Below, in pieces: positions 6,743 to 64,000 of a DNA stretch of 64,000 nucleotides. Position numbers and translations under genes: made by a program. The stretch comes from Demequina sp. (lineage in GTDB: Bacteria > Actinomycetota > Actinomycetes > Actinomycetales > Demequinaceae): the NCBI GenBank assembly GCA_024707205.1, contig JANQAD010000001.1:682001-746000 (forward strand). The letters are read 5' to 3'. The notes beneath the pieces are model-generated. The model did not search any database. It was not told the origin of the DNA and saw nothing but the letters and a program-made list of their open reading frames with translations. The stretch's first letter is position 1. Every line of letters starts with the position of its first letter.

Positions 6743-6829
6743 CCAGGGAGCGGTCGCGGCGGGGCTCCGCACCACCCGCACCCCCGCGGCGGGACGGCGC
6801 GCGCCGCCCAGACCCCCAAGAAGCAGACG

Positions 6830-6857: not shown

Positions 6858-6908
6858 GCTGCATCGGCCCGCAATGAGAGGCTGACCGAAAACTCGATTG
6901 GCTACAGC

Positions 6909-9066: not shown

Positions 9067-9111
9067 TGCAAAGCCTTCCGATTTCCCCCGAGAGATTGGT
9101 TTAGCAACGCC

Positions 9112-9142
9112 ATCGTAGTCACCGGCAATAGCGCCGTGTCAA
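9112..9142 (-). promoter_or_regulatory. Candidate lsr2 promoter
   Basis: On the minus strand a perfect TTGACA (9137-9142) is followed 19 bases later by TACGAT (9112-9117), leaving a leader of about 40 bases before the lsr2 ATG. The spacing is longer than the usual 17-18 bases, so the -10 call is tentative. Confidence 0.4.
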
Positions 9143-9145
9143 TTT

Positions 9146-9343
9146 CTAGGCGTTTTCCGCCGGTTTCTTTTCGCCATTGCCCGACGCTTCGGCCGCGCGG
9201 CGCGCATCCTCGGCATCGATGCGGGCGATTTCGGCGCGCTCGCGCCTATCGGCGCGAATAACGGCGCGCATCACGTACCAGAAGATGAGGCCGATCCCGA
9301 CGGACGGGAGGACGCTGATGAGCACAGCTTCAAGGCCGGTCAT
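9146..9343 (-). CDS. Small single-pass membrane protein
   Basis: The product has 65 residues: an N-terminal membrane helix ([26 protein letters not shown]) followed by a charged helical tail ([26 protein letters not shown]). Its ATG overlaps the lysS stop (ATGA), which supports real translation and co-expression with lysS. No function is recognised. Similar short membrane proteins often sit between lysS and lsr2 in related genomes, but I cannot assign a role. Confidence 0.75.
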
Positions 9344-50132: not shown

Positions 50133-51265
50133 CAACCACTCAGGTGGAGCCGACGCTGGGAGCCATCCCAGCGTCGGCCGCCTGGCGCCCGGGTGACCCC
50201 GTGGGCAACCGGCGATTCGCGTCCATAGGCGACGTGTGGCTTGAGGACGGCGGCGTGGTGCCCGACGCTGTGCTCGCCTATGAGACGTGGGGCACCTTGA
50301 ACGCGGCTCGCGATAACGCCGTCTACATCGCGCACGCCCTCACCGGGGACTCGCACGCATATGGCGATCCCGAACCGGGACACCCCACTCCGGGGTGGTG
50401 GAATCCGCTTATCGGTCCTGGCAAACCGGTGGATCCGGCGAAGCACTTCATCGTCAGCGCGAACGTCATCGGCGGGTGCCAGGGGTCAACGGGGCCGGCG
50501 TCGCTCGCCCCGGACGGCAGGGTCTGGGGCTCGCGCTTTCCGTGGCCGAGCGTGCGCGATCACGTGGACGCGGAGCTTCGACTCACTGAGTTGCTCGGCA
50601 TCGACCGCTGGCGGTTGCTCGCGGGTCCGTCCCTTGGCGGCATGCGCGTGCTGGAGTGGGCCGCGACCTATCCCGAGCGAGTGGGCGCTATTGCGGTCCT
50701 CGGCACCACGGCGGCCACCACCGCCGACCAGTTGGCGTGGGGCGTGCCGCAGGTGGCGGCGATCCGCGCGGATCCGCGCTTTCGCGACGGCGACTACTAC
50801 GACGCCGCGGACGGCGAGGGGCCGCACGTTGGGCTCGGCATTGCGCGGCAGATCGCGCACATCACGTACCGCTCGGAAGCGGAATTGGGGCGTCGGTTCG
50901 ATCGCGACCGCCGCGCTGACGGCGTCTTTGAGGTGCAGTCGTACCTTGAGCACCATGGCGACAAGCTCGCCCGGCGCTTTGACGCCAACACATACTTGCG
51001 CCTGGTTCACGCCATCAACGGTCACGATGTAGGGCGTGGCCGTGGTGGCGTGAACCGGGCGCTCGGCCGGTTCGAGGGTCCGGCCCTGGTCATCGCCGTG
51101 AGCAGCGACCGGCTCTATCCGCCGAGCAACGCGCAGGCGATCGCGGCCGCTCTGTCTGGTGCGGACGGCGTGACCCTGGTGTCCTCGCCGGTTGGCCACG
51201 ACGGGTTCCTCGTGGAGTCCGAGGCGATCAACGCGGTGGTTGGGGAGTTCGAGCGCGGGCTCTAG
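50129..51265 (+). CDS. metX: Homoserine O-acetyltransferase, copy 2
   Basis: This 378-residue copy has the complete catalytic set: LLAGPSLGGMRVLEWA, VISSDRLYPPSNAQAI-type acid loop (VIAVSSDRLYPPSNAQ) and SSPVGHDGFLVESEAIN. It also has AYETWGTLNAARDNAVYIAHALTGDSHA. The GTG start overlaps the metY stop. As the copy coupled to metY it is the better candidate for the main methionine enzyme; copy 1 may be differently regulated or have another acyl preference. Confidence 0.95.
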   Translation: MTTTQVEPTLGAIPASAAWRPGDPVGNRRFASIGDVWLEDGGVVPDAVLAYETWGTLNAARDNAVYIAHALTGDSHAYGDPEPGHPTPGWWNPLIGPGKPVDPAKHFIVSANVIGGCQGSTGPASLAPDGRVWGSRFPWPSVRDHVDAELRLTELLGIDRWRLLAGPSLGGMRVLEWAATYPERVGAIAVLGTTAATTADQLAWGVPQVAAIRADPRFRDGDYYDAADGEGPHVGLGIARQIAHITYRSEAELGRRFDRDRRADGVFEVQSYLEHHGDKLARRFDANTYLRLVHAINGHDVGRGRGGVNRALGRFEGPALVIAVSSDRLYPPSNAQAIAAALSGADGVTLVSSPVGHDGFLVESEAINAVVGEFERGL

Positions 51266-51504
51266 GTTTCCTCCCCAAGCATGCGCCGCGTCAAGGCGTC
51301 GACATCTCTATCCAGGCCATCGAGGCTGCGCTCCACTGAAGAGAACCGCGCGTCCATCACCACGCGGAGGCCGTCGACCTTCTCGTCGAGCCTACGAAAC
51401 TCGGCGCGCATCACACGGACGAACGAGTTCGAGACCACGGTCAGCATGCCAATGACGATTGTGGTGAAGACGCCAATGAGCGTCCACACTTGGGGTTCTG
51501 TCAA
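51262..51504 (-). CDS. Small membrane protein with coiled coil
   Basis: The product has about 80 residues: an N-terminal membrane helix (VWTLIGVFTTIVIGMLTVVSN) and a C-terminal heptad-rich coil (RLDEKVDGLRVVMDARFSSVERSLDGLDRDVDALTRRML). TTG at 51502-51504 is chosen because AGGAGG lies eight bases upstream; a GTG two codons earlier would sit on top of that site. It resembles the protein at 54203-54604 in layout and ending (LDGLDRDVxALTRxxxG). Four bases overlap with convergent metX copy 2. Function unknown. Confidence 0.7.
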   Translation of the reverse strand: MTEPQVWTLIGVFTTIVIGMLTVVSNSFVRVMRAEFRRLDEKVDGLRVVMDARFSSVERSLDGLDRDVDALTRRMLGEET

Positions 51505-51560
51505 CTGCACCACCTCCTCACTATGGAGCACGTGTGCTTTGCGCTGTCAAGACCCGCAGC
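51501..51560 (-). repeat. Duplicated upstream block, copy A
   Basis: This block is nearly identical to 54601-54660. It covers the start region of the coiled-coil gene, the GAGGAGG ribosome site and a perfect TTGACA (minus strand, 51545-51550). A second matching stretch follows at 51594-51615 and 54694-54715 (GTCGGGCCTGGGGACGCGA). The TTGACA may be a -35 element, but the only -10-like hexamer lies so close to the ribosome site that a promoter here is uncertain. Confidence 0.75.
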
Positions 51561-51618
51561 GCGCTCCCCCGGCGTCTGGGGAAAACCGAACCCAGCGTCG
51601 GGCCTGGGGACGCGACTG

Positions 51619-52629
51619 CTACGCGGGGCCCACCTGAGACGTGGTGAGCGCAAACCCCTCGGAGACGCCGGTGGCGGTGATGGTGGCCGCGTTTACGACC
51701 TTGGTGGTGGAGGCCGCGCGGATGGCGACGTCGAGGGTCGCCGTGTTCGTGGCTCCGGTGGGGCCGGCCGTGGACGGCGAGTAGGTATAGACGATCGTGT
51801 ACACGCCGCCCGCGAGCGTGATGGCGGGCGTGCCCCACGCCGGGTCGATGGTTCCGGAGGCGTAGGGATAGATCGAGAGCGGCGAGTACAGCGCGCTTGC
51901 CGCGATCGTGAAGGTCACCTTGATGTCGCTGATCTTCTCCGCGCCAACGTGGGTGGCGTCCGCGGCCGCACCCGTGTTCCGGACCGTGCCTCGGAGCCGA
52001 TAGATGGGGATGTTGCCCGGCACATAGCCACCCCTTCTGGCGTTCCAAGCCACGCTGTTGCCCGTGGCCGCGAGCCGGATGGTGCCGACGTTCGTGGTCC
52101 CGATGGTGCTGGTGGCGGTCACGGGCGCCAGGAGCGACAGCCCGCTGCCAACGTAGGTGAGGTTGAGCGTGTTGACGCTCGAGGACTTGGCGAAGCTGAC
52201 GGCGAGCTGCGCGGTGATGGGGTTGGTGGAGCTCAAGGGCTGGGGGCTGGTGTACGTAAAGGTGTAGGTCACCGTGCGCGCGCTGCCGCTGCCCGACGTT
52301 GTGTACGGCCCCGCGTACGACCAGCCAGTATTCGGGGTGACGGTGGGCGCGGTCGCCACCGTGATCCGGTTAAGCAGCATCGTGATCTTGAGCTGCACGC
52401 TGGAGACGGGCGCGTCGGGCGAGGGCGAGCCGGCGCCGGAGTAGGCGACCTGGCCGCGCACATACAGGATGGCGCCGGTCATGGTCGAGACCAGGCTGCT
52501 CAGCGCGATGGCCCCACGGGTGGTCGAGGCCGCGGCCGCGGGCGCGGCCGTGGCGATGAGCACGGCCGGCGTGGCCCAGGCGGCGCCGATCAACACGTGT
52601 CGGCGCGTGAGGCTAGTTTGTTCCGCCAT
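51619..52629 (-). CDS. Tat-secreted protein, paralogue 2
   Basis: The product has 336 residues with signal TRRHVLIGAAWATPAVLIATAAPAAAAS. The mature region is beta-rich with two similar halves (VSSVQLKITMLLNRITVATAPTVTPNTGWSYAGPYTTSG ... VRNTGAAADATHVGAEKISDIKVTFTIAAS), like tandem Ig-type domains. A CRP-like site lies 81 bases upstream of the start. No catalytic motif. It probably acts at the cell surface. Confidence 0.8.
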   Translation of the reverse strand: MAEQTSLTRRHVLIGAAWATPAVLIATAAPAAAASTTRGAIALSSLVSTMTGAILYVRGQVAYSGAGSPSPDAPVSSVQLKITMLLNRITVATAPTVTPNTGWSYAGPYTTSGSGSARTVTYTFTYTSPQPLSSTNPITAQLAVSFAKSSSVNTLNLTYVGSGLSLLAPVTATSTIGTTNVGTIRLAATGNSVAWNARRGGYVPGNIPIYRLRGTVRNTGAAADATHVGAEKISDIKVTFTIAASALYSPLSIYPYASGTIDPAWGTPAITLAGGVYTIVYTYSPSTAGPTGATNTATLDVAIRAASTTKVVNAATITATGVSEGFALTTSQVGPA

Positions 52630-52709
52630 CTCAGTTCCCTCAGTAGGACGCGTCCGCCGCGCGTCTTGGGATAAGTGTGAAGCGCAACTCGGACAAATCC
52701 CTACATTTG

Positions 52710-52725
52710 GGTGACGAGGATCACA
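52710..52725. promoter_or_regulatory. CRP-like site upstream of Tat paralogue 2
   Basis: GGTGACGAGGATCACA has the GTGA-N6-TCACA half-site layout of CRP-family operators, flanked by CTACAT as in the site at 53811-53826. It lies 81 bases upstream of the start at 52629. Confidence 0.45.
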
Positions 52726-52758
52726 TGGCGCCGCGGGCGTGCTCGGCTTCGACAGCGA

Positions 52759-53737
52759 CTAGAAGAAGATGAAGTAGGTGTCGCTGCCGGTCGCGCTGGT
52801 CACGGCGCCTTGCGCGGTTGGCGAGTGCCCCTCGAACGTCACGGATACGGTGCCGCCGACCAAGAAGCCCCCCAGCAAACGGGGTGCGGAAGCTCACCGT
52901 CACGGGAGTGTTGGACGGCGGCAGCGGTGAAGCCGTGTGCGTGAACGTATAGACGGTGGTGCTCGCGCCCGTCACGGTGCCCGTCAGCTGCCACGGTCCG
53001 CCGTCCACTCCCGCAGTGCCGGATCCACCCACGGACGCGTTCGGCACGGTCAGCCGCGCCACGATGCCCACGATGTCACCCGCGTTCGGCTGGCTCACGT
53101 TGTTGCGGATCGTGGCCGTGGTCCGCAGGTAGCGGGGCGACGTGAAGGGACCATCGGCCTCTACGGCAACCGCGGTGCCGATCGTCAGAATCGAGTACGC
53201 GCCAACGGCCACCTGCGTGAGCGAGCTCGTGGGGTGTCCGTTCGATGTGCCAGTCGCGCTCGAGTCAACGGTGAGGGCGGTGCGCAGCGGCTCAGTGGCG
53301 CCCGACGGCGTCGGCTTGGTGAGCGTCACGCTGAGAGGGGTGCTCGTGGGCGCGCCCTTGGTGAGCGTCACCGAGTACTTGTACGTCAGCGTCGTATAGC
53401 CGCCGCCGGTGACCGGCGGCTGCGCCGACCAGTTGGTGCCGGTGAAGGACACACTCGACGCGGTAACGCGCGAGGACGGAATCCGGAACACCATCGTGAC
53501 GCCTGTCACGGGATAGTCGTCGGCACCGCCGGGGACGCTCTCCTGGTAGGTGGCCACGCCCGAGAGGTAGAGCTTGGTCGAGTCCTGATAGCCGCTGGTA
53601 CTGGCAACTATCAGGCCGTATCCAGGGACCGTCTGCGACGTCGCCGCCGCCGGAACGGCCGTCGCGACAACGAGCGCGGGCGTAGCCCACGCAACGCCCT
53701 GCAGCACGTGCCTACGTGACATTGACGTGTCGCTCAT
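52759..53737 (-). CDS. Tat-secreted protein, paralogue 3 (frameshift at the C6 run 52868-52873)
   Basis: The signal is SRRHVLQGVAWATPALVVATAVPAAATS. The mature part resembles paralogue 2 (YPVTGVTMVFRIPSSRVTASSVSFTGTNWSAQPPVTGGGYTTLTYKYSVTLTKG). At a run of six C (coding-strand G) one surplus base breaks the frame. Without it the product ends AGGFLVGGTVSVTFEGHSP ... TGSDTYFIFF with TAG at 52759, 325 residues. A CRP-like site lies 74 bases upstream. Confidence 0.78.
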
Positions 53738-53810
53738 GGTGAAACGGTCCCTCAGTCATACCCCCGCACGGAACATTGTTCCCTACGCTCGGCGTGCCCC
53801 TCTACATCCG

Positions 53811-53826
53811 CGTGAGGAGTTTCACA
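53811..53826. promoter_or_regulatory. CRP-like site upstream of Tat paralogue 3
   Basis: CGTGAGGAGTTTCACA keeps GTGA-N6-TCACA and is preceded by CTACAT at the same distance as the site near 52710. It lies 74 bases upstream of the start at 53737. Confidence 0.45.
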
Positions 53827-53858
53827 TTTTGGGGCATCGGCCCGACGCTGTGGCCGGG

Positions 53859-54206
53859 CTAAGCAGGCCCGGCGTCGAGGAAGTGGCGCTTGAGAGCGGC
53901 GAGGTTGCTTTCCAAGTTGTCGAGATAGCGATGGATTGCCGCGAAGTCCTCGTCCATCACTTCGCGCATCGCCACCATCTCCGTACGAAAGAGCTCGACC
54001 TCTGAACGAACCGAGCCGAACTCGGGTCCGAGTTCCGTTCGGAGCGAGCCGAGATCCATACGGATGTCCTCACGTAGTGAGGCGAACTCCGCCCTGAGTG
54101 TCTTGGTGAAGGTGCGCTCGAAGAGGATCAGCACGCTCACAAGAACGGCGGCGACCACGCCGATGAGTATCCACCCGTGGAGTTCGGCCGAGGAAGCGGC
54201 GATCAC
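53859..54206 (-). CDS. Membrane-anchored coiled-coil protein
   Basis: The product has 115 residues: an N-terminal helix (GWILIGVVAAVLVSVLILFERTF) and a coil of about 80 residues (LRAEFASLREDIRMDLGSLRTELGPEFGSVRSEVELFRTEM ... IHRYLDNLESNLAALKRHF). The GTG start overlaps the upstream coiled-coil gene stop (GTGA), so the two are co-translated and may form a heteromeric coil. Function unknown. Confidence 0.7.
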   Translation of the reverse strand: MIAASSAELHGWILIGVVAAVLVSVLILFERTFTKTLRAEFASLREDIRMDLGSLRTELGPEFGSVRSEVELFRTEMVAMREVMDEDFAAIHRYLDNLESNLAALKRHFLDAGPA

Positions 54207-54604
54207 TCAGACCTGCCGGCTTCGCCGCCCATCACCTCGCGGGTGAGCGCGGCGACGTCGCGGTCGAGCCCATCCAGCCGGCGGTCAACCACCATACGCA
54301 GGGCGTCGATTTGTGCCTGCATAGCGTCGAACCGGGAACTGTGGCCAGCCAGCTGCCCTGCGATCCCTTCGAACCGGTGATCGTGGCCGGCCAGCTGGTC
54401 AGCGATCCCGTCGAACCGATGATTCAGCCCCGCGACCTCGCCCTTCACGCCCAGCAGGTCGCCCTTCAGGGCTGCCATGTCCACTTGCAACCCGGCGAGC
54501 CCGGCGCGAACCTGTCGCGGGATCATTCCCACGACGAGACCAAACGAACTCAGCACTGTGGCCAGCAGCACGCCCAACACTGCCCAACCAAGGGGTTCGC
54601 TCAA
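54203..54604 (-). CDS. Membrane-anchored coiled-coil protein with GHDHRFEGIAGQLA repeats
   Basis: The product has about 133 residues: one membrane helix (LGWAVLGVLLATVLSSFGLVVG) and a coil. The coil contains three near-repeats: NHRFDGIADQLA, GHDHRFEGIAGQLA and GHSSRFDAMQAQI. TTG at 54602-54604 has AGGAGG eight bases upstream, as in the gene at 51504, and the two share their 5' sequence block. Function unknown. Confidence 0.7.
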   Translation of the reverse strand: MSEPLGWAVLGVLLATVLSSFGLVVGMIPRQVRAGLAGLQVDMAALKGDLLGVKGEVAGLNHRFDGIADQLAGHDHRFEGIAGQLAGHSSRFDAMQAQIDALRMVVDRRLDGLDRDVAALTREVMGGEAGRSE

Positions 54605-54660
54605 CTGGATCACCTCCTCACTATGGAGGAAGCGTGCTTTGCGCTGTCAAGCCCCGCAAC
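54601..54660 (-). repeat. Duplicated upstream block, copy B
   Basis: This is the partner of 51501-51560. About 50 of 60 positions are identical, including the ribosome site and TTGACA (54645-54650). Both copies sit between a Tat-protein gene and a coiled-coil gene, marking duplication of a gene-pair unit. Confidence 0.75.
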
Positions 54661-54727
54661 CGCGCCCGGGGGCGACGGTGGAGAACTCAGGTCAGTGTCG
54701 GGCCTGGGGACGCGAGTTACGCGGGGG

Positions 54728-55424
54728 CTACGGCTCCGAGTCGTCGTAGTCGGGAACGCCCGTAAGGGAGTAGGCACCAAACGGGGGCCACGGCACGACG
54801 CCCGAGCCAATAAGCGCGGCGCCGTTGGCCACGGTCGCCGTCGGGGTGGATTGGGAGAACGTGGTGTCCGAGAACGTCGCTCGGATCGTCACGGAGGACT
54901 GGGTGCCCGCCTTGGAGGTGGCGTCGGTCTGCATCCACAGCCACGGTTGTACCCCCCTTGTACAGGCTCAAATTCGGACCTATGTACTTGAGCGTCAGGG
55001 TGGCCACCCCGGCGTTGACCGCCAGCGGCGTCGCGATCTCGTACGGCGCGTCCGGAGGGATTTCCTCGGAGTTGCTGAGCAGCCCCCATCGCGGCAGCTG
55101 CGGAAGTGTGCCCACCTGCTGCGAGATCGTCATGGTGAACCCGGTGAGAAACACATTGCTGAGGTCGCACGAGCCGATGGACTGGTACTGGAAGTTGTAC
55201 TGGTTGAAGATCGCAGGCACGCTCTGGCCGAGGTCGTTGTCCCAGAAGTTCGCGTGCCACTTCGAGGAGAAGGTCCCGCCAATTTGGAGGAAGGCGGCGC
55301 AACTGCTGACTTCCGACGCCGCGGCTTGCGGCACGCTCACGGCGAGCACGATGGCTGGCGTAGTCCAGGCGATGCCTGCGAGCACGCGCCTGCGGTCGAT
55401 GCCCCCGGATGCCGCGCCCGCCAT
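54728..55424 (-). CDS. Tat-secreted protein, paralogue 4 (frameshift at the C6 run 54952-54957)
   Basis: The signal is DRRRVLAGIAWTTPAIVLAVSVPQAAAS, almost identical to paralogue 1. The mature part has two cysteines (SSCAAFLQIGG and IGSCDLSNVF). One surplus base in a run of six breaks the frame; without it the C-terminus reads QPWLWMQTDATSKAGTQSSV ... YSLTGVPDYDDSEP, 231 residues in total. Start ATG at 55422-55424. Confidence 0.76.
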
Positions 55425-55572
55425 CGGATCCTCCGCCGCCCGTCCTCTGCGTCCATACTAGGCGCGGAGTGCGGATTCCGGAGTGGTCATTGAGTGCCGA
55501 GAATGGTGGACACAAGACCCGAGCGCGCCGAGGATCAACAGGATGGTCAGCTCGACGCTCGGACCAGGTCGT

Positions 55573-56193
55573 CTAGTTGGCGACGATCGTCGACGTGGCG
55601 GCGGTGAGCCAGGTGCTGCCGTTGGCATTAGCACGTGCGGTCTGCGTCAACGTCTGACCGACCGGGCTCGGCGATGACGCCAGCTCGATCCGGTATTCCG
55701 GCGAGAACGTGCCGCTGCTGTTCGGCCCGAGCGAAGTCGGCGAAATCAGGGTGAAGATATAGGAGGTTGTGGCCTCGCTGACGGACACAGAGAAGGGAGG
55801 CGTGCCGCCACCCGGCTGGTAGGTGTACGCGCCGTGCCACGCGAGCTGGCCATTGGGGAGCCAAGACTTGGGTACTGCGAACTGGATAGTCACGTTTGTC
55901 GCCGTCGCGCCACCACCGGGCGCGGTGTTGGTCAGATCGGGGTCGATCAGGAGGATCGGTCGATCCTTGTCCCAGTTGTAGTCAAAGATCTTCTCCATCT
56001 TGAGATAGACGTGCGCCGTCGTGAATGTGAGATAGCCCGCAGGGGCTCCATCCGACGCAGCCGCCGGCGGCGTCGCGACAGCCAGGACGATCGCAGGTGT
56101 GGTCCAAGCCACGCCTTGGATGATTCGGCGGCGGCTGATGCCGCCCTCTGATTGGACGTGCGGACGCCCAGCCTCTTCGGCTTCTGTGTACAC
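55573..56193 (-). CDS. Tat-secreted protein, paralogue 5
   Basis: The product has 206 residues from GTG at 56191-56193. The signal ISRRRIIQGVAWTTPAIVLAVATPPAAAS is preceded by a longer acidic N-terminus than in the others. The mature part is beta-rich (ATATNVTIQFAVPKSWLPNG ... GTFSPEYRIELASSPSPVGQ) and lacks known motifs. Confidence 0.78.
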   Translation of the reverse strand: MYTEAEEAGRPHVQSEGGISRRRIIQGVAWTTPAIVLAVATPPAAASDGAPAGYLTFTTAHVYLKMEKIFDYNWDKDRPILLIDPDLTNTAPGGGATATNVTIQFAVPKSWLPNGQLAWHGAYTYQPGGGTPPFSVSVSEATTSYIFTLISPTSLGPNSSGTFSPEYRIELASSPSPVGQTLTQTARANANGSTWLTAATSTIVAN

Positions 56194-56305
56194 GGTGTTG
56201 CTCCCTCAGCTTCCCGGAGAAGCCATTCTAGCGGATGAAAAACGTCCCGATATCAGGACTAATGGACCAAATTCGGGACGAAAGCGAGACTTCAAGTGCT
56301 GGATC

Positions 56306-57214
56306 TCAGTTCGAGCCAATGGTCATCGACGGCACGGTGCCACTCACGCCTGCAGACGTGTAGGTGCCCGTGAAAGTGATCGCAGCCTTGGTGTTGCCGT
56401 TGATGAGCGAGAACAAAGCCGTGGCGCTCCCGGTTGACGAGTTGATGGCGAGCGATGCCGGAATGTAGGTGAAGCGCACCGTGCCCACGCCGTTCGCGAC
56501 GCCAAGCGGCGTGACCCGCCAGTTTCCAACGGTTGTCTGGGTGGGCGCGCTGACCTTCTGGGAGTTGTACGTCGCAGTCAGCTCCAGCGCGGTCGCGGCC
56601 GCAGCCGGCGGGTCGTACGGCCCGGCGTGGCGCAATTCGAACGAGTATTGGCCCTGGTTGTAGTTGCCCGCGCTGTTCCACCCGACCGAGGCCGTCTGCG
56701 TCGCCGTCGTGTTTGCCGTGGCAGCGACGGGAATGTTCATCGATGTGCCCGCAGCCCCCACCTGGATGGATGTCAGGTAGGTCGGCCAACCCGCGAACGT
56801 GGCCTGGAGCGGGGCGGACCCAGTGTTCGCCGTAGTCAGGTCGGCACCAAGGTACGTGAAGTTGAAGACGATCTTGCCCTCAGAGGTGAACGTGTAGTTG
56901 TCGTAACGCCATCCACTCCCCACGGACGTGGGGGGCTGATTGGGCATGTTGTAGCGGCTTGAGAACACGATGGTCGCCTTGAGTCCCGTCACCGGAGCGG
57001 AGCCCGAAGCGCCGGTGTGCGCCACCTCCGCCTTCACGGTGAGCACGTTCGACGCATACACAGCGGACTGCGACACGATGATCAGCCCGCCGGCCGTGAC
57101 CGATTGCACCGTATTCGACGCCGCAGAAGCCGGCACCGCCGTCGCCACCAAGACGGCAGGCGTCGCCCACGCGACGCCTTGCAGCACGCGCCGTCGGTCG
57201 ATCTCAGCCGTCAT
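56306..57214 (-). CDS. Tat-secreted protein, paralogue 6
   Basis: The product has 302 residues from ATG at 57212-57214. The signal is DRRRVLQGVAWATPAVLVATAVPASAAS. The mature part repeats the beta-rich layout of paralogues 2 and 3 (SAPVTGLKATIVFSSRYNMPNQPPTSVGSGWRYDNYTFTSEGKIVFNFTYLG). A CRP-like site lies 60 bases upstream. Confidence 0.8.
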   Translation of the reverse strand: MTAEIDRRRVLQGVAWATPAVLVATAVPASAASNTVQSVTAGGLIIVSQSAVYASNVLTVKAEVAHTGASGSAPVTGLKATIVFSSRYNMPNQPPTSVGSGWRYDNYTFTSEGKIVFNFTYLGADLTTANTGSAPLQATFAGWPTYLTSIQVGAAGTSMNIPVAATANTTATQTASVGWNSAGNYNQGQYSFELRHAGPYDPPAAAATALELTATYNSQKVSAPTQTTVGNWRVTPLGVANGVGTVRFTYIPASLAINSSTGSATALFSLINGNTKAAITFTGTYTSAGVSGTVPSMTIGSN

Positions 57215-57273
57215 GGGCATAGGTCCTCGGTCCATTCAGATGGGGCGCTCCGCCACGCCCTCACACCAATGAG

Positions 57274-57289
57274 AGTGACATACGTCACA
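57274..57289. promoter_or_regulatory. CRP/GlxR-like site upstream of Tat paralogue 6
   Basis: AGTGACATACGTCACA matches TGTGANNTANNTCACA except for the first base, including the central TA. It lies 60 bases upstream of the start at 57214. Confidence 0.5.
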
Positions 57290-57328
57290 GCTATGACGCG
57301 AGATTCACGCTCGCGTTTCAAACGACGC

Positions 57329-57619
57329 TCAGAGCGGCTCTGTTCCCGGCCCCGCAACGTGCACCACTCCGGCCTCACTCAGGCGCGCCACCATGATGCG
57401 CACCTGGTCGTTTGGCGAGTTCCCTGCCGGCGGCGGGCCGAACATCTCCGTGAGGTACTCGCCGAGCTCGGCGATCGTTGCACCGCTCGCCGCCACCTTC
57501 ACCAACTCGGAACTCACAGGAGACAGCAGCATCACCTCGGACGCCACGAGCACCAGCATCTGGTCGTCCCGCACCAGCGCGTCGTCCACGGTGGCCACCA
57601 CTATCGAGGAATCGTCCAT
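57329..57619 (-). CDS. PqqD-like small protein
   Basis: The product has 96 residues with the PqqD fold pattern VVATVDDALVRDDQMLVLVASEVMLLSPVSSELVKVAASGATIAELGEYLTEMFGPP ... VRIMVARLSEAGVV. PqqD-like domains usually bind leader peptides, and they also occur beside HprK-related kinases in surface-polymer clusters. The ATG overlaps the stop of the HprK-like gene, so both belong to one operon with the BY-kinase. Confidence 0.82.
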   Translation of the reverse strand: MDDSSIVVATVDDALVRDDQMLVLVASEVMLLSPVSSELVKVAASGATIAELGEYLTEMFGPPPAGNSPNDQVRIMVARLSEAGVVHVAGPGTEPL

Positions 57620-59019
57620 CACGCCTCACCCCCGGCGAGCATGGGCACCAGATCAATAAGGTCCGACGCTTCGGCATAGGTCACGCGCGCAAGCCCACCC
57701 GTGCGCTCAATCACCCTGGCAAGGGAGCGCAACGGCTCCGCGAGGCGCGGCAGGTACGAGACCTGCGCGGACAGCTCGGCGATCCCCGGCAAGAGGGGAA
57801 CGTCCTCAATCACGGGCGAGACAGCGTCGGGCTCCCTGGTGAGCAACACGATCCGCGCCAGCCGCAAACCGGAGGGCGCAACAACCAGCCCCTCGGCGTC
57901 GGGCGAGAGCTGGCGCTTGAGGCGATGCCCGGAGCGGATCACGGAGAGCGGCTTGGGGTACGGCGTCACGGTGCCGTCGAAGTTGATGACCACGGTCTCG
58001 TCGCTCACATACCCGAACGCCTTGCCCAGCGTGCGGGACAGCGTCGTCTTGCCCGTGCCCGAGGGCGCCACGAACGCCACCACGCGCCCGTCCGGGAGCG
58101 CGAGCCCGGCGGCGTGCAGCATGATGACCTCGCCGGCGCGCTGATCGATCGCGCGAACGGTGACGGCCCCGGCGAGCGAGTGCATGACGTCGCCCGTGGT
58201 GTCGCCGCCGATGGCGCCGCGGGCCCGCGCAACGCGCACCTCGGTGAGGTCGTCCGCGACGATCGCCTCCACGACGATTGGCGCCTCGGGCGCAGCGGCA
58301 GCAGGATCGCGCAACACGCGCGACCACGCCTCGCGCAGGCGCCGGGCGAGCGCCCGCCCGCCATCGCCCGTGCACCGGATGTCCACGGGAACGCCGAACG
58401 CGTCCACGTGCACCAGCTCCGCGTCGGCGCCCGCGTCGAGCAGCAGCGCCGCGCCCAGGGGGTCGCGGTGCGGGGCGCGCGCGGGGGCCATGGCGAGCCA
58501 CGCCTCGGCAAGGCCGCGCACGTTCTCCGCAATGGCCGACGCCGTCTTCCGGTAGGCCTCCTCGTCACGTCCGCGGGGGGTCAGGATGTCGTCGGCAGGG
58601 CCGAGCTGTGCCTCGTCGCGGCCGTCGGCGAGCATGAGCGGGTGCTCGCGCAGCGGCGCCATGGGGTACAGGAGCGCGTTGAGGCGCCCGTACTCGACGA
58701 GCGTGAAGGTGCGCCTGCGGGCCCGCGGGTGGGCGGCGACCACGGCCTCACGCTCGGCGAGGGACATGGTGAGGATGAGGTCGGCGTCGTCGATGATGTC
58801 GCCATCAAGCAGCCGCGAGTGGAAGCCGCCGGGGTTGCCGCCGAGCATGCGCAGCATGTCCTGCGCGTCCGGGTCCACGGGCTGTCCCGGCTCGCCTTCG
58901 AGCCCCGCGGAGGTCACGCGGATGGCCCAAGCCTCCACGCCCGCGTTCGCGAGCGCGGGCCGCATCAGCCGCTCGGCGAAGGCGGCGCACGTCGAGTTGT
59001 GCGTGGACACCAGCACCAC
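57619..59019 (-). CDS. Fusion of degenerate low-molecular-weight phosphatase and HprK-like kinase domain
   Basis: The product has 466 residues from GTG at 59017-59019; a TTG at 59049 is an alternative start. Residues 1-160 follow the LMW tyrosine phosphatase fold (VVLVSTHNSTCAAFAERLMR, SRLLDGDIIDDADLILTMSLAEREAVV, DEEAYRKTASAIAENVRGLAEAW), but the C(X)5R loop reads STHNSTC: the catalytic Cys and Arg are both lost. Residues 190-466 resemble HPr kinase-related proteins with Walker A FVAPSGTGKTTLSRTLG. It lies between a BY-kinase and a PqqD-like gene, with no separate intact phosphatase nearby. Confidence 0.82.
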   Translation of the reverse strand: MVLVSTHNSTCAAFAERLMRPALANAGVEAWAIRVTSAGLEGEPGQPVDPDAQDMLRMLGGNPGGFHSRLLDGDIIDDADLILTMSLAEREAVVAAHPRARRRTFTLVEYGRLNALLYPMAPLREHPLMLADGRDEAQLGPADDILTPRGRDEEAYRKTASAIAENVRGLAEAWLAMAPARAPHRDPLGAALLLDAGADAELVHVDAFGVPVDIRCTGDGGRALARRLREAWSRVLRDPAAAAPEAPIVVEAIVADDLTEVRVARARGAIGGDTTGDVMHSLAGAVTVRAIDQRAGEVIMLHAAGLALPDGRVVAFVAPSGTGKTTLSRTLGKAFGYVSDETVVINFDGTVTPYPKPLSVIRSGHRLKRQLSPDAEGLVVAPSGLRLARIVLLTREPDAVSPVIEDVPLLPGIAELSAQVSYLPRLAEPLRSLARVIERTGGLARVTYAEASDLIDLVPMLAGGEA

Positions 59020-59035
59020 GCGGAACGCGAGCCCG

Positions 59036-60451
59036 CTACGCCACGGCAAGGATCAGTCGCCCTTCGCCTTCTGGAGTTGGCCGCGGCCCCAGCGAGGCGT
59101 CGTAACGGTACTCGCGGCCGTAGTACTTGCCGTCTCCCTTGCGGCTCACGCCGTCGAGGATGACGCCCAGCGCGCGGCCCTTGACGCGCTCAAGGTTCTG
59201 CAGCGACTTGTCGAGCAGGTCGATCGTGGTCTTGCTCGCCCGCACCACCACCAGCGCGCCGTCCGTGCGCGCGGTCAGGATGGCAGCGTCGGTCACCGAG
59301 ATGAGCGGCGGGGTGTCGATGAGGATGATCGCGCCCTCGTCCAGCGAGTTCAGCATGTTGCGCATGGTCACGGAGCCGAGCAGCTCGGAGGGGTTCGGCG
59401 GCACGGGTCCGGCGCCCATCACGGACAGGCGGCCCGTGCTACCCCAGGGCTGCAGCACGTCGCTGGGCTGCGCGCGCCCAACGAGCACGTCCGTGAGGCC
59501 CACACCGGGCACGAGTCCCAGGTAGTCCACCAAGGACGGGCGGCGCAGGTCCGCGTCGATGAGGATCACGCGCTGGCCGGACTCGGCGATGGACTCGGCG
59601 AGCTTGATGGACACGGTGGACTTGCCGTCGCCGGGCAGCGAGGACGTGATGACGATGATGCGCGGCGGGTTGTCCACGTCCATGAACTGCAGGTTGGTGC
59701 GCAGCTGGCGCACGCCCTCCGAGGTGTGGAAGTCCTTGGTGCCGGAGGCCACTCCCCGCTTGGCGATGTCGTTGTCAAAGGGGATGGTGCCCAGCACGGG
59801 GATGTCGAACTCGCGCTCGATCTGCTCCGCGGAGCGCAGGCGCCGGTCAACGGCCGCACGGATCAGCGCGTAGGCGATGCCGATCGCGAAGCCAAGCAGC
59901 AGGCCAAGCGCAACGGCCAGCTTCACGTTGGGCGACGACGGCGAGGTGGGCGCCAGTGCGGTGTCCATGGTCTGCAGCCGCACCACGGAATCCTGGCTGC
60001 CGTCCGTGTTGCTGCCGTTCTCCAGATCGCTCACGACCTTCGTCATGCCGGCGATCCACGCCTCGGCGAGCTGCTGCGCCTCCTCGGGCGTAGAGCCATT
60101 GGCCGAGACGCGCAACACAGCCGTGTCAAGCGGATTGGAGACGGTCACCCGGCCAACCAGAGCGTCGGGCGAAGCCGTGATCCCCAACTGCTCAATGGCG
60201 TACTCGGCAACCTGACGGGACTTCGCGATGTCCAGATACGACTTCACGCGCGAGATCGCGTACTGGTTGCCCACGAGCGCGTCGCCGATGCTCGCCGACG
60301 TGCCCGTGGTGATGATCGCCGAGCCGCTGGCCGTGTAGACCTTGGGCTGCGTCAGGGTCCAGCCGAATGCGAGCGCGCCGCCCACGATGGTGGCGATGAT
60401 GATCGCCGCCCAGTGCTGGCGGAAGATCCGCATGTAGTCCTGGAGCTCCAT
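59036..60451 (-). CDS. Wzz-domain BY-kinase (exopolysaccharide chain length/tyrosine autokinase)
   Basis: The product has 471 residues with two membrane helices (AAIIIATIVGGALAFGWTL and LAVALGLLLGFAIGIAYALI) around a Wzz-type extracellular region. The cytoplasmic ATPase has Walker A SSLPGDGKSTVSIKLA, Walker A' VILIDADLRRP and Walker B IILIDTPP, and the tail is tyrosine-rich (KYYGREYRYD). These proteins control capsule or exopolysaccharide polymerisation by autophosphorylation. It starts at ATG 60449-60451 inside the direct repeat. Confidence 0.93.
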   Translation of the reverse strand: MELQDYMRIFRQHWAAIIIATIVGGALAFGWTLTQPKVYTASGSAIITTGTSASIGDALVGNQYAISRVKSYLDIAKSRQVAEYAIEQLGITASPDALVGRVTVSNPLDTAVLRVSANGSTPEEAQQLAEAWIAGMTKVVSDLENGSNTDGSQDSVVRLQTMDTALAPTSPSSPNVKLAVALGLLLGFAIGIAYALIRAAVDRRLRSAEQIEREFDIPVLGTIPFDNDIAKRGVASGTKDFHTSEGVRQLRTNLQFMDVDNPPRIIVITSSLPGDGKSTVSIKLAESIAESGQRVILIDADLRRPSLVDYLGLVPGVGLTDVLVGRAQPSDVLQPWGSTGRLSVMGAGPVPPNPSELLGSVTMRNMLNSLDEGAIILIDTPPLISVTDAAILTARTDGALVVVRASKTTIDLLDKSLQNLERVKGRALGVILDGVSRKGDGKYYGREYRYDASLGPRPTPEGEGRLILAVA

Positions 60452-60570
60452 GCCCGGCCTTTCGTGTGTTCCCGCGCGCTCAACGAACGGGGTGAGCAGG
60501 CGGTTTCCAGGGTACTAGGTGCGGCTTTGCTCGCAGGGAGGCCCGACGTTGGGGTGGGTTGGGCTGCTAG
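60439..60570. repeat. Long direct repeat, copy 1 (5' leader and first codons of the BY-kinase gene)
   Basis: This pairs with 62559-62693. The first 95 or so positions align without gaps with six or seven mismatches; the remaining 35 align with small indels. It spans the BY-kinase leader and codons MELQ and ends at the stop of the AbiEii-like gene. Confidence 0.9.
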
Positions 60571-61385
60571 CTTCCCAATGCCGCAAGCAGCTCGTTGACG
60601 AGCGCGGCGAACGAAGGCGCTATTGCCGGGTCGTCGCCTGCCGCGGACGCAGCGAGTCGCGGAAACCTCCCGTTGGCCGCAACGCCGTGTTCGCGATATA
60701 GCGCCAATGCCTCGCGGGACGCTTCGCTCGCCTCGGCGACAGTCGCGTGGAGCGAAAAGCCGGCGACGAGCTCCTCCGCGCTCGCGGTCTGCAGGAGGCG
60801 GAACGCGTCAAGCGCATCCTTCGCGGAGACGCGATCGGGCCGAGCGTCCTCCTGGGCGAGTCTCTCGCCGAGTTTCACAGCTTTGGCAACGAGGAGCGCG
60901 GCGGGCCCGGCTACTCGGAGTCGAAACGACCGCCTATCAGTTGGCTCAAAGGCGGCGATGGTCTCGACCGTGCTATCGATGAGGGCGGGCTCTAGTCCGT
61001 GAGCGATGCGGGCCGTCATCTTCTCGTGCGGTGGGATACGCGCCGCGCGTGCCGATTTGCTTGTAGCGCCTGCTTGGTGCGGAGCGACCATGAGGTCGAG
61101 TGCGACGTCTCCCGGTCCCACCCAGTGCCCCGGCTGGGCACCGAGCACAAAGCCCGCACTGCGCAATGACTCACCGATCTCGGGCTCGTCCGCGAGTGCG
61201 TCGGTGTCAACCGTTAGGTCACCGTCGGTCGTCATGAGCGGAACAAGGAGTTCAGTTTCACTGGCCCGCACATAGACCGCCTGGGCTCCCACCAGCACAA
61301 GGTTCGGCAGGTGAGGCTCAAGCGCCTGCAGGCCGTCGAGAAGCACGCGTCGCGCGACCACGTATTCCGGTTCAAGGTTTGCCAT
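60567..61385 (-). CDS. AbiEii-like nucleotidyltransferase (putative toxin)
   Basis: The product has 272 residues from ATG at 61383-61385. The nucleotidyltransferase core is recognisable as LVLVGAQAVYVRA and the DxD-type motif TTDGDLTVDTDAL, with VALDLMVAP following. The downstream region is helical (LLVAKAVKLGERLAQEDARPDRVSAKDALDAFRLLQ), where Lys and Asp recall AbiEii/MenT-like enzymes. The ATG lies one base after the stop of the wHTH gene. Pairing with an AbiEi-like regulator suggests a type IV toxin-antitoxin or abortive-infection module. Confidence 0.72.
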   Translation of the reverse strand: MANLEPEYVVARRVLLDGLQALEPHLPNLVLVGAQAVYVRASETELLVPLMTTDGDLTVDTDALADEPEIGESLRSAGFVLGAQPGHWVGPGDVALDLMVAPHQAGATSKSARAARIPPHEKMTARIAHGLEPALIDSTVETIAAFEPTDRRSFRLRVAGPAALLVAKAVKLGERLAQEDARPDRVSAKDALDAFRLLQTASAEELVAGFSLHATVAEASEASREALALYREHGVAANGRFPRLAASAAGDDPAIAPSFAALVNELLAALGS

Positions 61386-61386
61386 T

Positions 61387-62469
61387 TCACTCGCTCCAGG
61401 CAGGATCGGAGCGAGCGAGCATTTCCATGAGTTGTTCCGCCTCAGCGTCACCACGCCCCGGCAGCGTCAAGAGGTCGGCGACTACGAGCGCGGTGGGCGC
61501 GACCGCTGGGTTTCCTTGCGGCTCCGCCAGGATGTCGGGAACCTGCGGGATCGCGATCATGACCTGTGCGGTTGCTTGTCTCGTCTCGACTAAGCCCAGC
61601 TCGGCGGCAAGTCGGCGGGGAGACGCCGCGTAGACGGCAAGCAAGAACAGCGGAACCACGGGTGTCACGTTTCCCGGCACAAGGCGGCGCGCTCCCGCCG
61701 AGCCTGTCAACGCGATTGGCGTCTCGACGTCTTGCAGCCGCTCTAGCGCTCTGTTGACCCCGCGGGGCGCTATGAAATAGCTGCAATCGAGGTTCGTCTT
61801 GGCAAATGAATAGTCGAGTGCCCACCGCCGTACGAGGGAGCGCTTGCGCACCGTCGCGATGGAGCCCTCGGCACCACGATCTACGGTGCCCTCCGAGGCA
61901 AGAGTCTGAAGGAGTTTGGAGACTGATCCCGGGGAGACTCCTGCCACTCCAGCGAGGTCTCGCACACCGACCGGTCCCGTGGTGTCGGCGAGCGCGCAGA
62001 TGGTTCGATTGGTGGCGACGCCATTGAGCCGGCGCACCGCAGACTCGCGCGGTGGGCCGGGAACCGTTTCTGCCCCCTGGGCCGTAAGCAAAATCGGCGG
62101 GTCAGACACCACTAGCCGCACCCAGCCCGTGGCGTCCGCGTAACTGAACCCCTCTGCGTCAAGCTTTGCACGCAGCGCTGGTGGCGCGTAGTCGGTCGCC
62201 AGCAGCACGGGGAGGTCGTTGTGCGTCTGGATTGCGCGCAATTGACCGAGCACCGCCGAGACAGTTGAGGCCCTCGTTCGCTTGACCTCTACAGCTAGGC
62301 GGATCCGCAGGCCGTTCGGAGCGACGAGACTCGCGATGTAGTCAGCTAGGGGCGCTTCCCTGCCCTCCGGTGCGGTGTACGTGATCGTCCACCGCGAAGG
62401 CAGCAGTGCGCGGACGCTGTTGAACGCATCCTCCACCAGCGCTGTTTCTGAAAGAGTCGCGTTTCTCAT
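61387..62469 (-). CDS. AbiEi-like regulator: nuclease-fold N-terminus plus winged helix
   Basis: The product has 360 residues. The N-terminal 130 contain a PD-(D/E)XK-like pattern (LADYIASLVAPNGLRIRLAVEVKRT, then EGFSYADATGWVRLVV). A winged helix follows (NRTICALADTTGPVGVRDLAGVAGVSPGSVSKLLQTLASEGTVDRG), then a C-terminal domain typical of AbiEi-like antitoxins (IAPRGVNRALERLQDVETPIALTGSAGARRL). ATG at 62467-62469 lies within one arm of an inverted repeat, as expected for autoregulation. A GTG at 62481 is an alternative start. Confidence 0.7.
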   Translation of the reverse strand: MRNATLSETALVEDAFNSVRALLPSRWTITYTAPEGREAPLADYIASLVAPNGLRIRLAVEVKRTRASTVSAVLGQLRAIQTHNDLPVLLATDYAPPALRAKLDAEGFSYADATGWVRLVVSDPPILLTAQGAETVPGPPRESAVRRLNGVATNRTICALADTTGPVGVRDLAGVAGVSPGSVSKLLQTLASEGTVDRGAEGSIATVRKRSLVRRWALDYSFAKTNLDCSYFIAPRGVNRALERLQDVETPIALTGSAGARRLVPGNVTPVVPLFLLAVYAASPRRLAAELGLVETRQATAQVMIAIPQVPDILAEPQGNPAVAPTALVVADLLTLPGRGDAEAEQLMEMLARSDPAWSE

Positions 62470-62519
62470 GACAAGAAACACGCTAATCTAATAAACGACC
62501 TGTGGCAAGGCTTGTCATG
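62467..62519 (-). promoter_or_regulatory. Inverted repeat at the AbiEi-like start, probable autoregulatory operator
   Basis: CATGACAAG (62467-62475) and CTTGTCATG (62511-62519) are a perfect 9-base inverted repeat 35 bases apart. The AT-rich spacer contains a likely promoter (minus strand TTGCCA and TAGATT-like sequence). One arm covers the start codon. AbiEi antitoxins are known to repress their own operons through inverted repeats. Confidence 0.6.
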
Positions 62520-62571
62520 CCGGCCGCACGCATTCGGCTCGCTGGGCCCGCAGCCGCACCTGGAGCTCCAT
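62517..62571 (-). pseudogene. Remnant of the BY-kinase 5' end
   Basis: Within the second direct repeat the BY-kinase start is copied: an ATG followed by codons for ELQ, then unrelated sequence to a TGA after 17 residues. This shows that the original gene start was duplicated and separated from its body. Confidence 0.7.
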
Positions 62572-62693
62572 GCCCGGCCCTTCGTGTGTTCCCGCGCGCT
62601 CAACGAACGGGGTGAGCAGGCGGTTTCAAGGGCACGAGGCGCGGTTTTGCTCGCAGGGGAGGTCCGATGCTGGGGTTGGGTTGGGTGCGCTAG
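62559..62693. repeat. Long direct repeat, copy 2
   Basis: This is the second copy of 60439-60570, ending at the stop of the macrodomain gene. The two copies frame the AbiE-like module. Confidence 0.9.
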
Positions 62694-63214
62694 TCGAGAT
62701 TGAGTTCGTCCTCGAGGGCGATGAGTTCCTCGAGAGCCCGGCGCTGGGCTTCGGTCGACGCGCCCTGTGGCACAAACAACTGAACGTCCACGTTTGGCAC
62801 CGCACTGAAGGCGGCCCGGATCCGTGTCTCGACGTCCGGCCAGCTGAGGCCACCGTTGCCACAGCCGAGCGGCGGAACCGCGATTGACGCAATGTTGAGG
62901 TCTTTGACAACTCGGACGAGATCACGAAGCCCCTTCTCAATGTCCTCGAGGCGCGACTTGGCCTTCCAGTGTGACTTCGTGGGGAAGTTGATGACGTACC
63001 GCGGGCCTTCAAGGGCTTGCGTGTTCCACACGTGCATCGTTCCGAGCCGAACCTGCCCGCGGTTGGCTATGGCGCGATACTCCTCGAACATGTCGGGGTA
63101 CGCGTTCTTGAACTGAAAGGCGATGCCCTTGCCCATGACACCCTCGGTGTTGACAGCATTTACCAGCGCCTCTGCGCCAGCGCCGAGCAGGTTCCCTCTT
63201 GCTTCGGTGATCAT
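62690..63214 (-). CDS. DarG/TARG1-like macrodomain protein without a visible DarT partner
   Basis: The product has 174 residues from ATG at 63212-63214. The macrodomain motifs are GNLLGAGAEALVNAVNTEGVMGKGIAFQFKNAYP, RYVINFPTKSHWKAKSRLEDIEKGLRDLV and IAVPPLGCGNGGLSW. This is the pattern of DarG, which removes ADP-ribose from DNA, rather than of typical MacroD proteins. The DarG C-terminal DarT-binding domain is absent and no DarT-like gene adjoins. It may be a stand-alone hydrolase or immunity factor. Confidence 0.85.
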   Translation of the reverse strand: MITEARGNLLGAGAEALVNAVNTEGVMGKGIAFQFKNAYPDMFEEYRAIANRGQVRLGTMHVWNTQALEGPRYVINFPTKSHWKAKSRLEDIEKGLRDLVRVVKDLNIASIAVPPLGCGNGGLSWPDVETRIRAAFSAVPNVDVQLFVPQGASTEAQRRALEELIALEDELNLD

Positions 63215-63285
63215 CTTCAGAACGTACCAACAGCGTGTGACGCGGGCGCTTACGGCGTGGGAGGCTGCAGTCCATCCCTGCACAA

Positions 63286-63810
63286 CTACCAGCTGGGGTG
63301 CACCTGGAATGTGCTTCCGGACTTCGCGATCTCAAAACGGGCGGTCGCCGGGGTGCCGCCGCCCACGGGCGAGATGGTCGCGACGTAGCGGCCGACTGCC
63401 CCGTCCACGGCGTTCATGGTGATGCCGATGGTGTTCGCGGAGTTGTTCGGCAGGCCCGCAGCGAGCGAGACGTTGGTCGCCGTGTAGATGCTGTTAGTGG
63501 TCCACGTGGCGCTCTGGTACTTGGTGAAGATGGTGGTGAACGTGGCGGCGGGGCCGGTGAGCTTCTCGATCATGAGGTTCGCCACGCCCGCGCTGTACAT
63601 GCCAAAGCGGAAGCCCGGGGCGAGCGTTCCGGCGCCCTCCCAGTTGGGACCGGTGGCGCGCACGGCGGCCACGAAGACGGTTGCCACGGGCGGCTCCTGG
63701 CTTGCGGACGCCATCGGCAGGCCCTTGGCCAGGAGGATGGCCGGGGCGCCCCAGCCAGCGGCTTTGACTACGGTGCGGCGGTCCACGCCCACGACGTCGA
63801 TCTCGCTCAT
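63286..63810 (-). CDS. Tat-secreted protein, paralogue 7
   Basis: The product has 174 residues with a divergent signal of the same design (DRRTVVKAAGWGAPAILLAKGLPMASAS). The mature part is about 135 residues (VFVAAVRATGPNWEGAGTLAPGFRFGMYSAGVANLMIEKL ... TARFEIAKSGSTFQVHPSW). It has no known motif. ATG at 63808-63810. Confidence 0.8.
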   Translation of the reverse strand: MSEIDVVGVDRRTVVKAAGWGAPAILLAKGLPMASASQEPPVATVFVAAVRATGPNWEGAGTLAPGFRFGMYSAGVANLMIEKLTGPAATFTTIFTKYQSATWTTNSIYTATNVSLAAGLPNNSANTIGITMNAVDGAVGRYVATISPVGGGTPATARFEIAKSGSTFQVHPSW

Positions 63811-63955
63811 GCGAATCCCTCAGTTCCGCGGCCCCTCAGCCGCCGTGCGAGGGAGTCTACGCGAACCCCGTCCGATATGGCCGAGGCCCCGGAGCGTCGC
63901 AAGGAAGTGCGTGTGTCCCGGGCAACGACCTCGCGCTCAACTCCGAGGGCCTCAA

Positions 63956-64000
63956 CTAGTGGGTGAACGTCCGGGCGGCGGGGTGTTGTTCCAGGGTGTC
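63956..64000 (-). CDS. Possible 3' end of a gene entering from the right edge
   Basis: The last 45 bases read on the minus strand as DTLEQHPAARTFTH followed by TAG. The fragment is too short to identify and may be chance. Confidence 0.3.
   Translation of the reverse strand, partial: DTLEQHPAARTFTH

Follow-up and report, generated by a model that had tools for sequence, protein, structure and literature searches.

In a 64,000-base stretch of the genome of Demequina sp. (the whole stretch of DNA analysed, hereafter the window; genome G000, one contig of 2,538,242 bases), two genes resembling the AbiE toxin–antitoxin pair lie between two direct copies of the leader of a BY-kinase gene. This pair is referred to below as the own module. 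The order on the minus strand is as follows: macrodomain gene, copy 2 of the repeat, AbiEi-like gene, AbiEii-like gene, copy 1 of the repeat, BY-kinase gene, and a gene of the low-molecular-weight (LMW) phosphatase type. The AbiEi-like and AbiEii-like genes are the only two genes between the copies (Table 1).

The copies are 94% identical over 100 bases without gaps, and the gapped local comparison gave 119 identical positions of 131 (E 2e-43), which confirms the arrangement reported in a preliminary description of this DNA. A chance repeat was rejected on the basis of the length and identity of the copies. Copy 1 starts inside the AbiEii-like stop codon, copy 2 almost directly after that of the macrodomain gene, and both end after ATG GAG CTC CAG G. 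In copy 2, ATG GAG CTC CAG leads into a stub, which is dead and stands beside the macrodomain gene, as had been described, and which has 18 codons instead of the 17 counted previously. Comparison of the leader region with the whole genome (E 0.001) gave no third copy, both matches being located here; the leader is not a promoter sequence shared widely in this genome. A possible -10 box is represented by CCTAGTACCC at 60510–60519 in copy 1 and by CCTCGTGCCC at 62630–62639 in copy 2; TAGACT- or TAAACT-like boxes were seen by eye before the kinase start in relatives.

The length of the AbiEii-like C-terminus is approximately that usual for the family; the stop codon therefore seems to be the natural one, and it is directly followed by the end of the insert. 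The G+C content of the insert (65.1%) is unremarkable compared with that of the window (67.9%). The Pfam analysis of eleven proteins (two of the insert and nine neighbours) gave no match to an integrase or transposase, in agreement with the preliminary description. A tRNA attachment site at this locus was rejected, as the region 50000–64000 is without a tRNA gene.

With a probability of approximately three in four, an AbiE-type unit was inserted between the macrodomain and BY-kinase genes with a target duplication of about 130 bases. The unit, of approximately 2 kb, would have been horizontally acquired and self-sufficient, containing an operator/promoter, a three-domain AbiEi-like regulator, and an AbiEii/MenT-like nucleotidyltransferase. 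The duplicated piece would extend approximately from the stop codon of the upstream gene to kinase codon 4. Since the duplication reaches this codon, the kinase keeps a complete leader and start in copy 1, and the far side keeps the dead copy 2; the duplication may in this way have kept the kinase expressed. The earlier proposal that the arrival of the module was accompanied by leader duplication, so that the kinase kept its own start, is supported by the repeats and by the four further loci considered below. The locus would represent a selfish unit that landed before a gene without breaking it.

Table 1. Features of the repeat-flanked module and adjacent genes (positions in the window).
Feature	Coordinates	Strand	Basis
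Intact BY-kinase gene (471 amino acids), sugar-export kinase, started from copy 1	59036..60451	-	Pfam, open reading frame
Direct repeat copy 1: BY-kinase leader and first four codons (MELQ)	60439..60567	-	119/131 identical to copy 2
AbiEii-like nucleotidyltransferase gene, 272 amino acids (GAQAVY ... TTDGDL)	60567..61385	-	Model (pLDDT 94.7), MenT1 alignment
Insert, 1,991 bases: promoter region, AbiEi-like and AbiEii-like genes	60568..62558	-	Computed length
AbiEi-like gene, 360 amino acids: predicted PD-(D/E)XK-fold N-terminal domain, winged helix, C-terminal AbiEi_2-like part	61387..62469	-	Model and profiles
Predicted N-terminal domain, residues 1–124, restriction-endonuclease fold with D43, E61, K63	62098..62469	-	PaqCI 8epx alignment
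Inverted repeat CATGACAAG / CTTGTCATG, 9 bases, second arm over AbiEi-like start, candidate operator	62467..62519	-	Sequence
Dead 18-codon stub MELQVRLRAQRAECVRPA beginning in copy 2	62515..62571	-	Read by eye
Direct repeat copy 2	62559..62688	-	Sequence comparison
Macrodomain gene, DarG-type macrodomain, accessory in genus	62690..63283	-	PADLOC/NCBIfam, genus search

Repeat-flanked modules at other loci

The 700-base flanks of 55 module loci were compared for direct repeats, with 944 pseudo-module windows from the same and related loci as a control. The 55 loci remained of 58 after removal of L131 and L134 (same modules as in L123 and L125) and of L135 (3 bases of downstream flank), and L132 and L133, two nearly identical loci of a single metagenome bin, were each counted. 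At several loci (L114, L207, L211, L218, and L221), the flanks fall short of 700 bases, which lowers the chance of a repeat match. Direct repeats of at least 45 bits were found at 7 of the 55 modules versus 7 of the 944 control windows (Fisher p 2.7e-6). Without L223 and L220, five of the 55 modules remain (p 2.5e-4), and removal of the own module as well leaves 4/54 (p 0.0019).

At four loci besides the own one, the module is flanked by copies of neighbouring sequence, a positive outcome of a check proposed in the preliminary description, and at two of them sister species carry the target site in a single copy. In G430 (L120), a P450 gene is repeated over 327 bases at its 3' end (95% identity); in G192 (L117), the repeat comprises 86 bases of a gene end read by eye as the msrA 3' end (85%); in G026 (L121), a repeat of approximately 45 bases spans the stop codon of a GNAT gene (87%); and in G637 (L232), a DsbH/DUF255 gene is repeated over its first 123 bases (98%). 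The G637 repeat surrounds an XRE plus nucleotidyltransferase unit, whose toxin is 34% identical to that of the window and in whose regulator Pfam found helix-turn-helix-type matches only. Together with the own repeat of 130 bases, the lengths over the five insertions range from ~45 through 86, 123, and 130 to 327 bases, and the target genes differ. The inserts are 1,991 bases long in the own locus, 1,755 in G637, and 2,064, 2,066, and 2,157 in the others, with little beyond the operon in each. The right-hand copy starts at distances of -1 (own), 7 (G026), 23 (G430), 111 (G192), and 112 (G637) bases behind the toxin stop codon. In L232, the 5' end of the DsbH/DUF255 gene occurs in three copies (5144–5266, 6987–7183, and 8808–9004 in the oriented locus).

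For the site between the GNAT and glyA genes, which is occupied in G026, 30 loci were fetched from 44 genomes with the gene, and 13 were compared. In the alignment of G025 with G026, the left flank matches through position 2082 and the right side from position 2034 to the locus end, 49 bases being present once. G024 shows an equal overlap, but its right flank matches over 77 bases only, and approximately 0.9 kb of other sequence separates this part from the realigned glyA side; in L144, a target copy and then ~0.9 kb of other sequence were seen. The GNAT-to-glyA distance is 160–279 bases in 5 of the 13 relatives and 1,043–1,125 bases in 8, and none of the 13 aligns with the module at this site. 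Approximately 1.1 kb with an open frame of ~290–360 codons was seen at the G026 module site in L139, L141, L142, L144, L145, L146, L148, and L150.

The second site is that of G430. In G760, whose P450 is 99% identical, the match of the left copy runs through 2692 and that of the right copy starts from 2349, with 344 bases present once. In the other six P450 loci, both G430 copies match one single stretch (five at 86–91% DNA identity, one at 83%). Downstream of the P450 gene, the stretches 2693–3889 of L169 (G760) and 8010–9445 of the oriented L120 are unaligned. A single copy would also be left by a repeat-mediated deletion of the type described for a haloarchaeon in passages of PMC3119063. 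Insertion is preferred over deletion because among 37 genomes of the genus the AbiEi query matched G000 and G026 only, and because no compared GNAT-glyA site aligns with the module.

The repeat of L223 was rejected as a target duplication, since it holds a TTCGGGAA box that is also located upstream of AbiEi in L120 and L121; it is read as an operator copy for the same reason. This 39-base copy of a presumed operator (5027–5065 and 7001–7039) stands behind the toxin gene, resembling a former second unit or a circle junction. A copied operator behind a toxin gene is the one observation in favour of regarding the repeats as members of a promoter or repeat family that has nothing to do with the module. 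Such a reading is scarcely credible for the own locus: the genome has two copies, both here, copy 2 includes kinase codons, and the repeats of other modules come from their own neighbours. The L220 repeat, situated 385 bases downstream of the toxin gene, resembles the 3' end of a tRNA and was not counted either. In addition, the L123 repeat (45–55 bases, 76–78%) was too weak to be counted; in L129 the repeat lies far upstream and has a third copy, the close flanks being without a repeat; and in L137 the repeat, which was not counted, encloses a broken module along with other genes at the end of a contig.

As for the control windows, they overlap, and the seven high scorers correspond to five places (L046, L125, L122, L038, and L226), one of which has a tRNA-like end by eye. 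At two of them, both in related kinase regions, the repeats enclose a putative transposase gene: L046 (4053–4550 / 6451–6948, 498 identical bases) and L038 (7144–7273 / 9610–9736, 130 bases, 83%). In L122, a 121-base repeat (2230–2350 / 4351–4471, 85%) surrounds a helix-turn-helix-like gene upstream of another AbiE-like module.

Kinase neighbourhood and module distribution

Sixteen related kinase loci, with kinases 62–69% identical, were available for comparison, G026 giving two pieces. In 8 of the 16 loci, the kinase gene is immediately preceded by a PqqD-like gene, and in one more such a gene is located approximately 3 kb upstream; in the other 7, no PqqD-like match was found within the ~8.6 kb examined. 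In the source genome, PqqD is located just past the window edge and is preceded by an NTP_transf_5 gene. The interval from PqqD to the kinase here is 5.5 kb including the AbiE module; besides this module and the macrodomain gene, it contains two sugar-nucleotide epimerase/dehydratase genes and one unassigned gene. Of 44 genomes of the genus, two have the macrodomain gene, one of them being the source genome. Because PqqD is directly upstream in half of the related loci and the macrodomain gene is rare, the order macrodomain–leader–kinase, put forward earlier as the original one, can at most be the last step before the insertion. Over approximately the first 158 profile positions, the macrodomain protein matches the macrodomain of the DarG antitoxin, with E 3.6e-73 in PADLOC and with 244.2 bits in NCBIfam, where the cutoff is 250; no scanned neighbour of its gene was named DarT.

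Each of the 16 relatives has one leader, none alignable with the own leader, and in none of these loci (8 to 9 kb each) was a second copy of the respective leader found; relatives carrying both repeats without the module, which would have spoken against the proposed arrival, were not among them. The same result bears on a sequence of events in which the leader and the kinase were duplicated in tandem first, the module landed in one copy, and the rest was lost, leaving MELQ. The persistence of a kinase-start stub in copy 2 and the three target 5' ends in a row at G637 fit such a history. It is nevertheless improbable, given that only four kinase codons are left, that no related kinase locus has a duplicated leader, and that the G026 repeat corresponds to a stretch which is single in G025, with both flanks aligned and without a remnant of a larger duplication.

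At E 0.001, AbiEi-like matches were found in 4 of 59 genomes, including the own one, two of them only at ~1e-4. Within the class, 25 of 394 genomes had matches (15 at 1.2e-14 or better), and AbiEii-like matches were found in 28 of 396 genomes of the order and 16 of 396 of the phylum (the own included). Named relatives include Nocardia macrotermitis. This sporadic occurrence fits a moving unit. G026, the second genome of the genus matched by the AbiEi query, carries its module at another site with an AbiEi protein 34% identical to the own one. The toxins of G000 and G026 are 40% identical and fall into separately supported clades of the tree; the module is present in the genus as separate lineages.

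No match of the toxin was found in 50,697 phage records, and none of 107 pattern matches in viral contigs was confirmed as a toxin relative with the alignment query; a phage vector was rejected on these grounds. Toxin relatives on plasmids were limited to 19 of 72,556 records, all below 60% identity and none covering 80% of the query. The phage data also bear on the idea that the locus is the remnant of an integrase-type element (genomic island, prophage, or integrative and conjugative element), with the repeats as attachment sites and the integrase lost. Integrase-type elements typically show direct repeats that rebuild a gene end, and such repeats are present here. This origin is very improbable, since the repeats vary from case to case in length (~45 to 327 bases) and sequence, gene starts and gene ends are both targeted, the inserts hold little beyond the operon, the region 50000–64000 has no tRNA gene, and the toxin has neither a phage-record match nor a confirmed viral-contig match.

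Proteins of the module and known systems

The model of the AbiEi-like protein has a mean predicted local distance difference test (pLDDT) score of 92.1 and a predicted template modelling (pTM) score of 0.73, with a winged helix at approximately residues 149–219. Residues 1–123 of the model were aligned with the N-terminal endonuclease domain of PaqCI (8epx) at Z 10.1 and 9.2 (for Z 10.1, root-mean-square deviation (rmsd) 2.8 over 123 residues, 14% identity); in this type of structure alignment, models without a clear match usually peak at Z 7 to 8. Foldseek pointed to EndoMS/NucS (probability 0.82–0.98 in five chains, E 0.01 to 0.1) and gave no match at E 0.001 or better. The VIA-align rows for the model are mostly winged helices, a list that does not exclude unlisted families. 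Judging by the model, the N-terminal domain has the PD-(D/E)XK fold. Of 41 family members, 24 have an intact D/E/K triad and 17 a degenerate one, which makes nuclease activity uncertain.

As for the AbiEii-like protein, its model was aligned with MenT1 at Z 13.7 (177 residues, rmsd 3.5, 20% identity) and with MenT3/TglT at Z 11.8 (222 residues, rmsd 4.0, 11% identity). Residues G33, D54, and D56, which form a G...DhD-type signature, are invariant in all 36 family members. Foldseek found nothing at E 0.001 or better for this model, the best matches being ANT(2'')-Ia and MenT1, and sequence searches for solved relatives gave none of note. MenAT1 and MenAT3 share the nucleotidyltransferase toxin fold of the AbiEii-like model and have a partner gene of a different type than the AbiEi-like one.

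According to the profile searches, the window regulator scores 18.6 bits with AbiEi_2, below the cutoff of 21, and 8 of 41 members match at E 0.01 or better. Pfam AbiEii (PF08843) does not match the window toxin, and with E 0.01 or better it is found in two of the 36 family members; neither protein of the window was named by NCBIfam or PADLOC. Since the toxin misses the Pfam AbiEii profile and the regulator is below the AbiEi_2 cutoff, the unit is AbiE-like by anatomy and not a proven member of AbiE, and the names AbiEi and AbiEii are based less on sequence profiles than on fold and gene order.

AbiE is described in passages of PMC3985639 and PMC7319586 as a type IV system with a two-domain AbiEi antitoxin and a DNA-polymerase-beta-type toxin. 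The unit of the window shares with it the regulator gene in first and the nucleotidyltransferase gene in second place, the winged helix, an inverted repeat in the promoter, and the G...DhD-type motif. In contrast to the two-domain AbiEi of these accounts, the regulator here has an extra N-terminal domain, of predicted PD-(D/E)XK fold, before the winged helix. The AbiE type system has two 23-base repeats, whereas one 9-base inverted repeat was found at the locus, where 23-base repeats were not sought. For PaqCI, an N-terminal domain with a PD-(D/E)xK motif is described in the cited part of PMC10201449; the likeness lies in the N-terminal fold and the D, E, and K residues, and the difference lies in the 14% identity and in the presence of the triad in 24 of 41 members.

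For restriction-modification genes, parts of PMC3874152 and PMC3031569 record insertion accompanied by target duplications that vary in length and are on the order of 100 bases, citing Nobusato et al. 2000 and Furuta et al. 2010 for the long target duplication. As far as these accounts go, the likeness consists of a selfish unit, no visible transposase, long variable duplications, and inference from the comparison of related genomes. The cargo is different, being an AbiE-type toxin–antitoxin unit here. Transposed plant genes also have flanking direct repeats, often matching the target site, according to passages of PMC2869330; unlike the module, these are plant genes without a toxin–antitoxin cargo. 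In the available text of the open-licence literature searched, neither the insertion of AbiE or other toxin–antitoxin units with target duplication nor an AbiEi protein carrying an endonuclease-fold domain is reported.

Possible routes of insertion

The accounts of restriction-modification insertion, in the parts cited, give no mechanism. For the movement of standalone toxin–antitoxin units between genomes without plasmids, phages, or transposons, the precise insert limits, the single-copy sites, and the one-operon unit at the own locus and in relatives make the mechanism testable. No terminal sequence shared by the junctions of the repeat-flanked modules was seen by eye. Together with the lack of an integrase or transposase among the scanned proteins and with the variable target and repeat length, this argues against site-specific recombination and transposition.

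A recombinase-free event would be most likely, in which synthesis during repair or replication would switch template into the incoming fragment and then back to the sister chromatid slightly upstream; capture at a staggered break would be an alternative. Selection would then filter for products sparing both neighbours. In a locus of this structure, the unit could be excised or re-inserted by homologous recombination of the flanking copies; its loss would be disfavoured by toxin addiction. Ku was found in 5 of 9 genomes tested and was not found in G000, G026, G025, and G517. Ku-dependent end joining is therefore unsupported as a general mechanism, and it could not be the common one unless the event predates the loss of Ku.

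Several observations weigh against insertion of the unit with target duplication. The differences between copies 1 and 2 are uneven, 10 of 12 being located in the 60 columns farthest from the start codon (binomial p 0.009), which simple in-place duplication does not predict; this suggests later conversion or a mosaic origin and leaves a homologous-recombination route open. The leader of the nearest kinase (69% identical) was unalignable, and an empty site at the own locus was not seen. Beyond the right copy, G760 and G430 are unaligned for approximately 1.2 kb (G760) and 1.4 kb (G430) and then realign; therefore, the G430 site is not a clean two-sided match, and something else changed there. 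At G637, the second interval between target copies is occupied by a DUF4143 ATPase gene, and the three target copies indicate that two insertions may have struck one site, one of them with another cargo. In the flank test, the 45-bit threshold was set after the scores were known, and 48 of the 55 modules have no strong repeat, for which module age could be the cause. In addition, the controls represent ordinary loci and not recent insertions, so that an excess of AbiE modules over other small insertions is not shown.

The uneven difference of 9% between the copies, like a mosaic of two alleles, would be compatible with a Campbell-type integration, in which a circle with the module and one leader copy, released from a related genome by recombination of its repeats, would have entered the resident leader by homologous recombination. 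No Ku, which was not found in the source genome, would be needed, and a circle model is drawn for plant genes in a passage of PMC2869330. Such an integration seems rather unlikely, however, as no donor with the same leader was found, the sole other AbiEi relative in the 37 genus genomes being that of G026, at a different site and 34% identical. It would also account for spread at one site and not for the first insertion at a new site.

With regard to insertion with target duplication, the predicted endonuclease-fold domain on the antitoxin side may provide a direct and testable link to restriction-modification genes. A minimal self-inserting element, in which the PD-(D/E)XK domain of the AbiEi-like regulator would nick or cut the target and the staggered gap would be filled on both sides, is quite improbable, as the D/E/K triad is intact in 24 of 41 members anyway, and the G637 unit, with its 98% identical repeats, has an XRE regulator. 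If true, it would be a toxin–antitoxin counterpart of restriction-modification insertion, both being driven by a nuclease of the cargo. In its favour, the triad is intact in the own module and in L117, L120, and L121, that is, in all repeat-flanked modules with an AbiEi-like regulator, and the DUF4143 ATPase of G637 carries an E-V-K stretch recognized by eye.

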